Shown: positions 7,323 to 13,092 of the stretch, piece after piece | Position numbering within the stretch: position 1 is the first letter of the stretch | How the letters are laid out: each line of letters begins with the position of its first letter | Assembly (NCBI GenBank): GCA_026984555.1 | Contig: JALSRY010000360.1 | Coordinates: 1 to 13,092 of the forward strand | Direction of reading: 5' to 3' | Source of the DNA: Phycisphaerae bacterium | GTDB lineage: Bacteria > Planctomycetota > Phycisphaerae > UBA1845 > Fen-1342 | Length of the DNA stretch: 13,092 bases | Notes under the pieces: model-generated | Seen by the model: only the letters and a program-made list of their open reading frames with translations | What the model was told of the DNA's origin: nothing | The model's database searches: none | Position numbers and translations under genes: made by a program

Positions 7323-9311
7323 CTACGTGGTGTGCGCTCGGCGACCCGATACGAACGTTTCTCCGGCCCGGGCGATCTGCGCATCCAGCCTTTGCGCCAA
7401 CAGTGCCCCCGGTACGCAGCCGATGAACCGACGCATCAGCTCCCCCATCAGGTAGCGGTGCAGCGCGCCGCTGTCGCGGAATGTGGCGCCGGCGACGCCG
7501 GCAACCGCGTCGGCAACCGCGGCGTCGATCTCCTCGTCCGCCAGCGGCCGAATCCCCAACGCATCGAGCAGGTCCGCAACGCTCGTCGGCCGCGATTCCG
7601 CCGGCGCGTGAACCTGGAACAGCCGCTCGAACACCTCGACGACCCCTTCCCGCGCCAGCCGCCCCTCGGCGTGGGCCTGGAACACTTCGTAAATCTCGGC
7701 GTCGCTCAGGCAACCCGGATCGAGCCCGTCACGCCGCAAGGCCTTGAACCGCTGGATCAACACCACCGCGACAAACCGGGGGTCCACGTCCAGTTCGCCG
7801 ACGATGCGTTCGAACAACGCTGCCCGGGGCGAAATGCACAATGGGTCGATCACGTCCGCCGGCAATCCCAGCGACCGATAACGCTCGGTCCGTTCCCAGA
7901 CCATCGGCGGCAAGTGCGCACGGATCCGCTCAACCCGCGCGGGCGCGATTTCGATCGGCGGCAAGTCCGTGTCGGGATACATACGCTCCGCACCGGGCAA
8001 CACGCGCTCGAAGCCGTTGGTCCCGTCGGGAAAGGCCTGCCGCGTGTCGCTGGGCACCCCCCACGTCGCCTCGCATGCTCGCTGGGCGATTTCGTTGCAC
8101 GCTGTTTCCGTGTCGCGTTCATCCCCCCAGACAAGCACGAGCGCGTCGTTGTCCGCGGCGCGCGTCTTCTTGCGCAACTGCTTCCAATCGCGCGCCGGGA
8201 GCGATTCCGCCGCCGTGTCCGAGTGCACGATGTTCGGCAGTTTCGTGAGGCACGCGATGACGCGCACCCGGTCGGAGAACTCGGTCGCGAACGTGGTGTC
8301 CTCCTGGGTCTGGCGACGCAGGAGCCCCTCGAAAGCACGCAGCACCACGCACTTGACACGCAGGCCCCGGCGCAACGCCTCTTGAATGGGTGCGTACGGC
8401 GCCCGGCTGACGATCCGCGTCACGTCGTGGGTCGAGAACGCGAACGTCTCCGGTGTCACGCCACGCCGTTTGAGCTCGTCGCGGATGCCGAGCAACGCGC
8501 ATTGGCGCATCGCCTCGTTGTAGATCAGGCGTGGAATGCGACCGATCTGCGGCACGCCCTTGATTTCGATCCGCGTGCCGCCGCGCACCGACACGTTCAC
8601 GTCTTCGCGGGTCGAGCCGTAGCCGCGACGCACCTTGGCCGTGCTGCGACACAGAAGGCGAATGATCTGGCAGACGTCGGCGCACTCCTGAGGAGTGCGC
8701 ATGTCGGGGTCTGTGACGACTTCGATCAGGGGGGTGCCGAGCCGGTCGGTCAGGTAGACGCGATCATGCCCCACGTCGGAGACTTCGCGGCAGGAGTCTT
8801 CCTCGATGCTGAGCTGGGTAATGCCGATGCGGCGGTTCCGGTAGGGGATCCATCCCGAGACGCCGATGATGCCGGTACGCTGGAAACCCGTGGGAATCGA
8901 CCCGTCGAGGTACTGCTTGCGCGCGATATGGAGTTCACCAACGAGGTTCAAGCGGCAGAGCAGCGCGATCTCGATCGCGATATCGAGGGCCTGGTCGCTG
9001 ATCATGAACGGGGGCGTGTCGTCGAACTCGTAGGTGCAGACCGTTTCGTGGTGGATGCGGTAGTAGATGTTCTTGCGGGTCTTTTTCTCCATCAACGCGG
9101 TGCCGTCGTACTCGCCCAGCTCGGAGAGCGTCGGCCGCATGTGCCGCAGGATTTCGGCGTCGTATTCGTCGCGGTAGCGACCCGCCGGACAACGGCAAAA
9201 CAGCTTGGTGTCGGTCAGAAGCTGCTGGTGAACCTCGAGCCCGCACTTGAGGCCGATGCGGGCGTAGTCGTCCGCGGTCATCTGCTCGAACGGTTTGAAT
9301 CCCGGTACCAT
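7323..9311 (-). CDS. gatE: Glu-tRNA(Gln) amidotransferase subunit E (archaeal-type GatE), 662 aa
   Basis: The protein starts like all GatB/GatE enzymes (IGLKCGLEVHQQL, residues 19-31). It then shows the GatE version of the cradle domain: DGSIPTGFQRTG (136-147), SIEEDSCR (168-175), STREDVNVSVRGG (233-245). Residues about 295-430 are the AspRS-like GAD insertion found in GatE but not GatB. The GatE hallmark follows (AFPDGTNGFERVLPGAERMY, then PDTDLPP, 426-452), and then a helical and YqeY-like tail to about 645. Bacterial GatB is about 480 residues; 662 fits GatE. GatE phosphorylates and amidates Glu on tRNA(Gln) using ammonia made by GatD. No GatD or GatCAB gene is in the window. The start is the ATG at 9311, with a modest AGGTGGG site; Met11 is an alternative. 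Third-position GC resembles the neighbours, so any transfer is old. GatE identity is firm; the physiological role here is inferred. Confidence 0.93.
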   Translation of the reverse strand: MVPGFKPFEQMTADDYARIGLKCGLEVHQQLLTDTKLFCRCPAGRYRDEYDAEILRHMRPTLSELGEYDGTALMEKKTRKNIYYRIHHETVCTYEFDDTPPFMISDQALDIAIEIALLCRLNLVGELHIARKQYLDGSIPTGFQRTGIIGVSGWIPYRNRRIGITQLSIEEDSCREVSDVGHDRVYLTDRLGTPLIEVVTDPDMRTPQECADVCQIIRLLCRSTAKVRRGYGSTREDVNVSVRGGTRIEIKGVPQIGRIPRLIYNEAMRQCALLGIRDELKRRGVTPETFAFSTHDVTRIVSRAPYAPIQEALRRGLRVKCVVLRAFEGLLRRQTQEDTTFATEFSDRVRVIACLTKLPNIVHSDTAAESLPARDWKQLRKKTRAADNDALVLVWGDERDTETACNEIAQRACEATWGVPSDTRQAFPDGTNGFERVLPGAERMYPDTDLPPIEIAPARVERIRAHLPPMVWERTERYRSLGLPADVIDPLCISPRAALFERIVGELDVDPRFVAVVLIQRFKALRRDGLDPGCLSDAEIYEVFQAHAEGRLAREGVVEVFERLFQVHAPAESRPTSVADLLDALGIRPLADEEIDAAVADAVAGVAGATFRDSGALHRYLMGELMRRFIGCVPGALLAQRLDAQIARAGETFVSGRRAHTT

Positions 9312-9532: not shown

Positions 9533-10312
9533 ATGCGGAACAAGTGCTCGCTCGCCGCGGTCGCCGCGGCCCTGCTGTTCGCCACCAGCGCCCGCGCCCA
9601 GACGGACTTCGTGTTCTTCTTCTCGTTCGGCGACAGTTGCTGATTCGGCCAGGTGATGGGCGTCTGGTCAGGCGCCACCGACGATTTTGACAGCGGCCTC
9701 GACCGACCGCTCGAGTTCCCGGGACTCGGGGCCGCTGCGATCTACCATGCCAACGATCCCAACGCGTGGGCCGGTCCCACCGCGTTCTACGTAACCGACT
9801 ATCGTGCGCCGATGGCCCCGGACGAGTCGAAAACCTGGTCGCCGATCCATCTCTGGGCGACGCCCGGAGCCTACGGCGACGACACGATGACGTTGTTGAT
9901 CCAGGGCGCGGCGGACGTGACACCGCCACCGAACCGAACCTACACGCTGGAGCTGCTTTACGTACCGCCGGGCGTGACGGGCGCGCCGCCGGTGGGTACG
10001 ACGTGGGATGTTCCCCCCGATGAGCCGTTTACGGTAACGGTGCCGACGTTTGCCACCGACGACGGTCGCGAAGGATACCAGTTTGCCTTGACGGTGGGTG
10101 CGGTGGCGTGTCCCGGTGATATCGACGGCGACGGTGTGGTGGATCTTTCCGATCTTGCCGTGCTCATCAGCTCCTACGGCTTGTGCGCCGGCGAGACCGG
10201 CTTCGTGCGACAGGCCGATTTCACCGGCGACGGGGACCACCCGGACGGCTGCGTGGACCTGGCCGACTTGGCGCTGCTCCTGAGCAACTACGGCTGTGGT
10301 TCGCCGCCCTGA
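9533..10312 (+). pseudogene. Secreted protein with C-terminal dockerin type I repeats, interrupted by an in-frame TGA
   Basis: The reading frame from ATG 9533 begins with a clear signal peptide (MRNKCSLAAVAAALLFATS, then ARA|Q, cleaved after residue 22). It meets TGA at codon 37 (9641-9643) and continues in the same frame for 222 codons to a TGA at 10310. The continuation is plainly coding. It has GVWSGATDDFDSGLDRP and VTDYRAPMAPDESKTW, resembling exported planctomycete proteins as I recall them, and then two dockerin-like calcium motifs. The first is canonical (GDIDGDGVVDLSDLAVL). The second (DFTGDG...CVDLADLALLLSNYG) carries about five extra residues between its calcium ligands. A GTG at 9653 and ATG at 9656 could restart translation but would lose the signal peptide. 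TGA ends other genes here (HAD, sigma factor), so it is a real stop. A TGG-to-TGA change or a sequencing error is the simplest reading; the gene may be intact in the organism. Confidence 0.75.
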
Positions 10313-12624: not shown

Positions 12625-12685
12625 GCGGCTTTGATCGGAAACCGGTGCCGGCGTCGTGTGCCGGCCGCAGACGAGGACAGCAGAC

Positions 12686-13092
12686 ATGAGTGACCCATCG
12701 AATACCACCACGATTGGAGCTTTGGAACCGGGGGCCGTCTGGCGGTTTTTCGTGCAGATGGCGGCTGTTCCGCGCCCGTCGAAACACGAGGAAAAAATCC
12801 GGGCACACGTGCGCAAGACGGCCGAGGCGCTGGGTCTGGAAGTTCACGAGGACGCCACTGGCAACCTGTTGCTGCGGGCGGCCGCGACGCCGGGGTGCGA
12901 GAACGCCCCCACGGTCGTCTTGCAGGGACACCTCGACATGGTCCCCGAGAAGAACGCCGACACCCAGCACGATTTCGAACACGACCCCATCCGCCTGATC
13001 CTCACCACCGACAAGCAAACGGGCGAACCGGTCGTGACGGCGGACGGAACGACGCTCGGGGCAGACAACGGTATCGGGGTCGCGATGGCGCT
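12686..13092 (+). CDS. pepD: PepD-type aminoacyl-histidine dipeptidase (Xaa-His dipeptidase, M20 family), 5' part
   Basis: The frame opens at ATG 12686 with GAGG about nine bases upstream and runs off the window edge after 135 complete codons. It is a metallopeptidase that splits dipeptides such as Xaa-His in the cytoplasm. The N-terminal part has PRPSKHEEKI (about 30-39) and GLEVHEDATGNLLLR. The first zinc-ligand motif is LQGHLDMVPEKN, in which the His and Asp of GHLD are the metal ligand and the neighbouring catalytic Asp. The second is TTLGADNGIGVA, with the bridging Asp of GADN. Both are close to E. coli PepD, which distinguishes it from other M20 peptidases such as PepT. The remaining ligands lie beyond the window, so activity cannot be judged. 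It follows rny in the same direction after 282 bp and probably has its own promoter. Confidence 0.93.
   Translation, partial: MSDPSNTTTIGALEPGAVWRFFVQMAAVPRPSKHEEKIRAHVRKTAEALGLEVHEDATGNLLLRAAATPGCENAPTVVLQGHLDMVPEKNADTQHDFEHDPIRLILTTDKQTGEPVVTADGTTLGADNGIGVAMA

Follow-up and report, generated by a model that had tools for sequence, protein, structure and literature searches.

A predicted GatE of a wide bacterial GatDE clade in the genome of a Phycisphaerae bacterium

The gatE locus

The window analysed here, a stretch of 13,092 nucleotides, is contig 360 of the assembly of a Phycisphaerae bacterium (G000; 3.48 Mb, 808 contigs, 88.7% complete). Its minus strand carries a gene for GatE, which is one half of GatDE, the enzyme that completes the attachment of glutamine to tRNA-Gln. 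A sequence-only reading of the window had placed this gene at the correct coordinates, 7323..9311, and gave no strand. The features of the gene are as follows.

7323..9311, minus strand: gatE, Glu-tRNA(Gln) amidotransferase subunit GatE, 662 aa, ATG start, stop codon at 7323-7325
7932..9248, minus strand: GatB/GatE catalytic domain (Pfam GatB_N, residues 22-460), split by the GAD insertion
8100..8387, minus strand: GAD domain insertion (Pfam, residues 309-404), which marks GatE versus GatB
7956..8000, minus strand: LPGAERMYPDTDLPP, residues 438-452, eight of them invariant in 39 aligned GatE
9228..9230, minus strand: His28, aligning with His15 of P0132, invariant in 39/39 GatE
8802..8804, minus strand: Glu170, aligning with Glu157 of P0132, invariant in 39/39 GatE
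8721..8723, minus strand: Glu197, aligning with Glu184 of P0132, invariant in 39/39 GatE

The residue reference in this 39-row alignment, P0132, is a Methanothermobacter-type GatE. We take the positions of His28, Glu170 and Glu197 to be metal ligands or the metal site of GatE.

The product exceeded the cut-offs of both GatE models of NCBIfam, with 535.5 bits against NF003107 (cut-off 456) and 488.7 bits against TIGR00134 (cut-off 319.55), and stayed below the cut-off of every NCBIfam GatB model (best 146.8 bits, cut-off 338). The GatE scores exclude chance, and the family assignment made from the letters of the window holds. The GAD insertion, which had been put at about residues 295-430, was matched by Pfam at 309-404 within the GatB_N core (34.6 bits, cut-off 23.4), and the GatB_Yqey tail scored 25.8 bits, slightly below its Pfam cut-off of 27. 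The signature claimed for residues 438-452 is indeed there. Eight residues of LPGAERMYPDTDLPP (L438, P439, R443, M444, Y445, T448, D449 and P451) are invariant among the 39 aligned bacterial and archaeal GatE.

Comparison with the sequences of solved chains placed two archaeal GatE at the top (361 and 343 bits), with GatB chains at 90 bits or less. An AlphaFold2 model built from the 39 aligned sequences reached a mean pLDDT of 88.6; Foldseek with this predicted model returned 1zq1_C and 2d6f_C/D as nearest structures (TM by target 0.83-0.84), with GatB at 0.76 or less. The window protein thus shares with the archaeal GatDE of Pyrococcus abyssi (1zq1) and of 2d6f, whose organism is presumably Methanothermobacter thermautotrophicus, the GatE domain order with GAD, the invariant core residues and, as predicted, the fold. 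It differs from them in being bacterial, in an identity of 32-35%, in falling into a separate group of the tree, and in the U1-A72 pair of the tRNA-Gln that accompanies it. With GatB of the bacterial GatCAB enzyme it shares a homologous core (Pfam GatB_N) and presumably the reaction on Glu-tRNA(Gln), whereas GatE has the GAD insertion and is partnered in relatives by the asparaginase-like GatD rather than by GatA and GatC. As far as the sequence tells, the gene is an intact gatE of a bacterial GatDE clade.

The bacterial setting described in the sequence-only reading is confirmed by Pfam, which identified a HAD phosphatase, YacG, a sigma-70 factor, a T2SSE/PilT-type ATPase, a PAS-HD protein (HD_5) and RNase Y among the neighbours. 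The frame at 801-2123 had no Pfam match. A dockerin type I match at 9653-10309 reached 22.1 bits, slightly below the cut-off of 22.9. At 12656-13090 the contig breaks off within the first part of a PepD-like peptidase, which was read by eye only.

The composition of gatE is also host-like, as had been claimed: its GC3 is 0.844, within the 0.68-0.85 of nine other stretches of the window. The flanking genes are not common to 36 relative loci, which have short flanks; the sole flank match outside the window's own locus was a PilT-type ATPase of 35% identity, 3.5 kb upstream of gatE in a genus-mate (L131). Such a private neighbourhood would be seen if an archaeal or otherwise foreign gatE had been joined to a bacterial contig during assembly. 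We consider a chimera of this kind hardly credible, since the window GatE is closest to bacterial proteins (71-72% identity to the genus-mate and at most 78% to database proteins, against 32-35% for archaeal rows) and its GC3 is no outlier among the stretches of the window.

Spread of GatE and GatD among bacteria

The species contigs of GTDB were scanned with two bacterial-type GatE peptides, a scan with archaea outside its reach. At least 590 stretches were recovered, at least 572 of them relatives, and the best 80 all bear bacterial names, from about a dozen phyla according to the titles of the assembled genomes. These names comprise Planctomycetota/Phycisphaerae, Latescibacterota, Bacteroidota, Ignavibacteria, Chlorobiota, Kapabacteria, Aminicenantes, Acidobacteria, Calditrichota, Cloacimonetes, Gemmatimonadetes, Krumholzibacteriota, Neomarinimicrobiota and KSB1, and some are given as 'bacterium' only. 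The suspicion that bacterial homologues might already be catalogued proved right: many of the 120 protein matches listed already carry the name GatE at NCBI, so membership of the family is on record.

Among the best 80 loci, gatD lies downstream of gatE on the same strand in 69. In seven of the remaining 11 the sequence stops about 430 bases or less from the gatE match (L139, L157, L177, L187, L193, L196, L209), and four (L135, L141, L186, L201) are without gatD despite more downstream sequence; the genome of L186 (G053) has gatD on another contig. The GatD of one relative (G039) matched the solved chains 1zq1_A and 2d6f_A at 407 and 402 bits, with all others at 144 or less, and the GatD of the relatives has the TGGT and HGTDTM motifs of these two chains.

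We also surveyed the order, with 41 genomes including G000. Here gatE was over the cut-off in 14 genomes and partial in two more (G017, G022), giving 16 GatE-positive relatives, while gatD was over the cut-off in 14. Both genes occurred in 13 genomes, gatE only in three (G000, G006, G017), gatD only in one (G004) and neither in 24, a co-occurrence with a Fisher p of 4e-7 that ignores kinship. The two genes sit on different contigs in G009, G010, G015 and G022. In a panel of 25 further GatE-positive genomes (G041-G065), which brings the GatE-positive set to 41, gatD was over the cut-off in 23, partial in G062 and missing in G058. Hence, the window GatE is no lone transfer: it belongs to a widespread bacterial GatDE clade.

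The partner of GatE in the genome of the window

The sequence-only reading had named glnS, gatB, gatA and gatD among the genes to look for in this genome. The first three turned up, as a GlnRS of 768 bits, a GatB of 443 bits and a gatA split into two pieces (491 and 171 bits), together with a bacterial-type GluRS, glutamine synthetase and tRNA-Gln(UUG). No gatD was found by profile search in the contigs of this 88.7% complete assembly, so our claim for G000 is a GatE and not a proven GatDE system. The general statement that bacteria use GatCAB or GlnRS applies here, with GlnRS and GatB present, and GatE is therefore an extra rather than a replacement.

Two sources of ammonia had been offered for this GatE, a gatD elsewhere in the genome or a different amidase. 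The former is the best fit, as the genus-mate (G001) has gatE followed by gatD and 13 of the 16 GatE-positive relatives possess gatD; the gene itself is the part that G000 did not yield. We infer from the relatives an unlinked gatD that is unseen in the assembly. Supply of ammonia by a different amidase, for instance GatA or an asparaginase, would account for the genomes with gatE and without gatD, namely G000, G006 and G017 of the 16 relatives and G058 of the 25 panel genomes, and gatA pieces are present in G000. It is nevertheless very unlikely: G006 and G000 are only 68% and 88.7% complete, the gatE of G017 is broken, G058 is without gatB, and the pairing with gatD in 13/16 favours the usual partner.

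Alternatively, the GatE of G000 might be a relic, on its way out after the loss of gatD while GlnRS and GatCAB do the work. The absence of gatD from a genome with gatE, glnS, gatB and pieces of gatA is in line with this, as is the relative G017 (97% complete), which is without gatD and whose gatE frame matches the window only up to residue 375 and is followed by a C-terminal part. Decay of GatDE therefore does occur. The G017 gatE locus with this apparent decay is L025 (G017:C252). For the window we regard a relic as unlikely, given that its gatE is of full length and retains the residues invariant among GatE, and that an assembly gap is the simpler cause, with 88.7% completeness, 808 contigs and the separate gatD contigs of G009, G010, G015 and G022. 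The unlinked gatD thus remains our preferred explanation.

Co-existence with GlnRS and GatCAB

Across the panel, GlnRS was over the cut-off in 20/25 genomes and GatB in 11/25, with two GatB pieces in G060. Counting G060, the routes found beside GatE were GlnRS only in 13 genomes, both in seven, GatB only in five and neither in none. The 16 GatE-positive relatives comprised five with GlnRS only, ten with both, one with GatB only (G029, which has a partial GlnRS) and none with neither. Judged by the GlnRS and GatB profiles, GatDE was the only route in 0/41 GatE-positive genomes, and so no genome proves that GatDE suffices. Furthermore, the presence of GlnRS in G000 and in most GatE-positive genomes means that pathway logic does not explain the need for GatDE. 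Panel genomes whose records are titled chromosome, such as G042 (CP054675.1, a complete genome) and G044 (CP070707.1), combine GatDE with GlnRS and have no GatB over the cut-off.

GatB over the cut-off was absent from 6/17 order genomes with gatD or gatE, versus 1/24 without them (G019, 62% complete). Among genomes at least 80% complete, which excludes G006, G019 and G029, the counts were 6/15 versus 0/23 (p 0.002, uncorrected for kinship), and at 90% completeness 3/9 versus 0/18 (p 0.029, Fisher test ignoring kinship). The same comparison with gatA was weaker (5/17 versus 1/24, p 0.066), and glnS displayed no link to GatDE in the order genomes (p 0.21). Of the GatCAB genes, the searches covered gatB and gatA in the order and gatB in the panel. 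The pattern of GatB loss fits a GatDE able to stand in for GatCAB.

Transfer RNA and GluRS features

Among the matches listed, after duplicates were dropped, we compared 84 tRNA-Gln genes; some genomes gave one isoacceptor only, and the GatE-positive set includes G000 and G058, both without gatD. According to one review, archaeal tRNA-Gln has A1:U72, C12:G23 and A73, and the GatDE of archaea makes use of A1:U72 and of the D-loop (PMC9499178). The comparison with archaeal identity elements that the sequence-only reading proposed speaks against an archaeal-type tRNA: all 49 tRNA-Gln genes listed for GatE-positive genomes (28/28 UUG and 21/21 CUG) have U1-A72, and A73 occurs in 6/49 and C12-G23 in 22/49. 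A bacterial GatDE must hence accept U1-A72, if it acts on tRNA-Gln. In planctomycetes without GatE, U1-A72 was found in 14/18 listed UUG and 17/17 listed CUG genes, the other four having A1-U72. These four tRNA-Gln(UUG) genes, which carry the pair of archaeal type and come from planctomycetes that lack GatDE, are L449, L497 (G031), L450 (G005) and L452 (G026).

We also considered a division of the isoacceptors, with GlnRS charging CUG and GatDE serving UUG. Planctomycete tRNA-Gln(CUG) has G2-C71, G3-C70 and G73, and most UUG genes have A2-U71 and C3-G70; the former set is listed as GlnRS identity in a table of PMC9976931. However, the UUG type is also present without GatDE (A2-U71 in 16/18 and C3-G70 in 17/18 rows), and G2-C71 occurs in 15/28 UUG rows of GatE-positive genomes. 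A division is thus highly improbable, and we rejected it because the same UUG tRNA is present without GatDE.

GluRS is the candidate supplier of Glu-tRNA(Gln). Arg358 of the Thermus enzyme, at a position linked to rejection of tRNA-Gln, falls opposite an alignment gap in all ten planctomycete GluRS compared (six from GatE-positive and four from GatE-negative genomes), with an arginine two columns beyond it in 10/10. As the gap is also found in 4/4 planctomycetes without GatDE, it does not track GatDE. The gap weakly suggests that planctomycete GluRS may charge tRNA-Gln. Of ten GluRS rows from outside the planctomycetes, seven have Arg358, which makes GluRS a doubtful source of Glu-tRNA(Gln) there, and three have His, Lys or Glu. 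PMC3927822 describes Arg358 as a weak predictor and notes that mutating it did not bring about this effect in Helicobacter GluRS1. For an archaeal-type GluRS partner the GlnRS profile was used, which returned GlnRS at high scores and other matches at 90 bits or less.

Four GatE-positive genomes (G044, G047, G052, G054) each have two different GluRS genes (L416-L423). In eight planctomycete GluRS (L405-L407, L410-L414) the KMSKR motif is followed by a long insertion that the Thermus and Mycobacterium rows do not have; the insertion is short in L408 and L409.

Proposed role of bacterial GatDE

Based on these findings, we propose, with a probability of about 0.68, that Glu-tRNA(Gln) is the substrate amidated by bacterial GatDE and that this enzyme can substitute for GatCAB, a reading drawn from gene content and homology. 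The glutaminase GatD would release ammonia from glutamine, and GatE would turn Glu-tRNA(Gln) into Gln-tRNA(Gln) by phosphorylating and amidating its glutamate. The substrate would be made by the bacterial GluRS of the same genome, which has the gap at Arg358. With GlnRS charging tRNA-Gln directly in parallel, GatDE would mainly convert or correct the misacylated fraction; GatCAB could perform the same correction, and GatDE would take over where GatCAB was lost.

A parallel is offered by Deinococcus, Thermus and Bdellovibrio, which have GlnRS plus GatCAB (PMC4206432). As in those bacteria, a direct synthetase and an amidotransferase stand side by side; here, in contrast, GatDE is added to them or accompanies GlnRS alone where GatB is missing. 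Bacterial GatDE differs in this from archaeal GatDE as well, since it sits with GlnRS and archaea have none (PMC9499178).

GatDE might instead act on another Glu-tRNA or on a metabolic substrate. All 41 GatE-positive genomes have GlnRS or GatB beside GatE, and the reported reading of A1:U72 by archaeal GatDE (PMC9499178) is at odds with the U1-A72 of the 49 listed tRNA-Gln genes. Nonetheless, the catalytic core, the GAD domain and the GatD partner match the known enzyme, and in order genomes at least 80% complete GatB was lost only where GatDE is present, which is what a shared function of the two enzymes predicts. We therefore judge a different substrate quite improbable, and retain amidation of Glu-tRNA(Gln) as the best reading of the whole.

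Phylogeny and implications

The main tree comprised 59 rows: 42 bacterial GatE, nine archaeal GatE and eight GatB as outgroup. The archaeal rows stem from very few groups, with five from Pyrococcus, Thermococcus or Palaeococcus, two from Methanothermobacter or the like, and two others. Viral contigs provided no additional archaeal GatE for the tree. The plasmid collection provided one frame-broken haloarchaeal gatE, read to its first stop (448 aa); its first 330 aa entered a quick tree of 60 rows as a partial tenth archaeal row and were omitted from the main tree.

In the main tree the bacterial GatE formed one group (bootstrap 93, SH-aLRT 74), as did the archaeal rows (100/99); in the quick tree the respective supports were 61 and 99. 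The tree program flagged the meeting of two long branches, those of the archaea and of GatB. The window GatE fell into a set of ten bacterial rows (100/99 in the main tree), which in the quick tree equals the planctomycete rows minus that of G029. Bacterial GatE therefore stands beside, not nested within, the nine or ten archaeal rows of very few groups, and transfer and old inheritance are both possible. The old inter-domain transfer suggested in the sequence-only reading is accordingly not borne out by groups of 93/74 and 100/99 that lie side by side, with nine archaeal rows of few groups. Tentatively, bacterial GatDE may be an old enzyme of the bacteria's own, predating the splits of many bacterial phyla (or a heritage of the common ancestor); it would accept U1-A72 tRNA-Gln and be retained alongside GlnRS to correct Glu-tRNA(Gln). 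We hold this to be possible, at odds clearly below even.

Three reviews restrict GatDE to archaea (PMC8007984, 2021; PMC8762117, 2022; PMC9499178, 2022). They further describe it as present 'only in archaea missing AsnRS' (PMC8007984) and as an archaeal signature protein (PMC8762117), and an archaea-only GatDE underlies a picture of the last common ancestor and an explanation for the absence of GlnRS from archaea (PMC9499178). Among the matches listed in open PubMed Central papers we found no literature on bacterial GatDE, and none in open PubMed Central on GatDE in planctomycetes. As far as these searches show, the bacterial GatDE clade is named in databases and has not been taken up in reviews. 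A wide bacterial clade that occurs with GlnRS and with U1-A72 tRNA-Gln makes the archaea-only ideas testable. Bacterial GatE now enter the GatE tree, and U1-A72 offers a natural counter-example for probing the role reported for A1:U72. The reasons for keeping several routes to Gln-tRNA can be studied in genomes that have two or three of them.

Glutamine synthetase beside gatE and gatD

Apart from gatD, no recurrent neighbour emerged from the 80 best loci (gatE found in 71/80), the largest group of similar neighbours comprising six loci. Glutamine synthetase (glnA) lies directly upstream of gatE in 4/80, with the names Phycisphaerae (two), Krumholzibacteriota and Latescibacteria, and directly downstream of gatD in G029.

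L134, 5-802: glutamine synthetase beside gatE-gatD
L136, 4080-4877: glutamine synthetase beside gatE-gatD
L194, 4171-4959: glutamine synthetase beside gatE-gatD
L210, 2355-3143: glutamine synthetase beside gatE-gatD
G029:C1:2606822-2607913: glutamine synthetase directly downstream of gatD

We rejected GatDE as the only source of glutamine, as glutamine synthetase was found in 39/41 GatE-positive genomes (missed in G049 and G062). The adjoining glnA of these five genomes hints at a tie between GatDE and glutamine supply.
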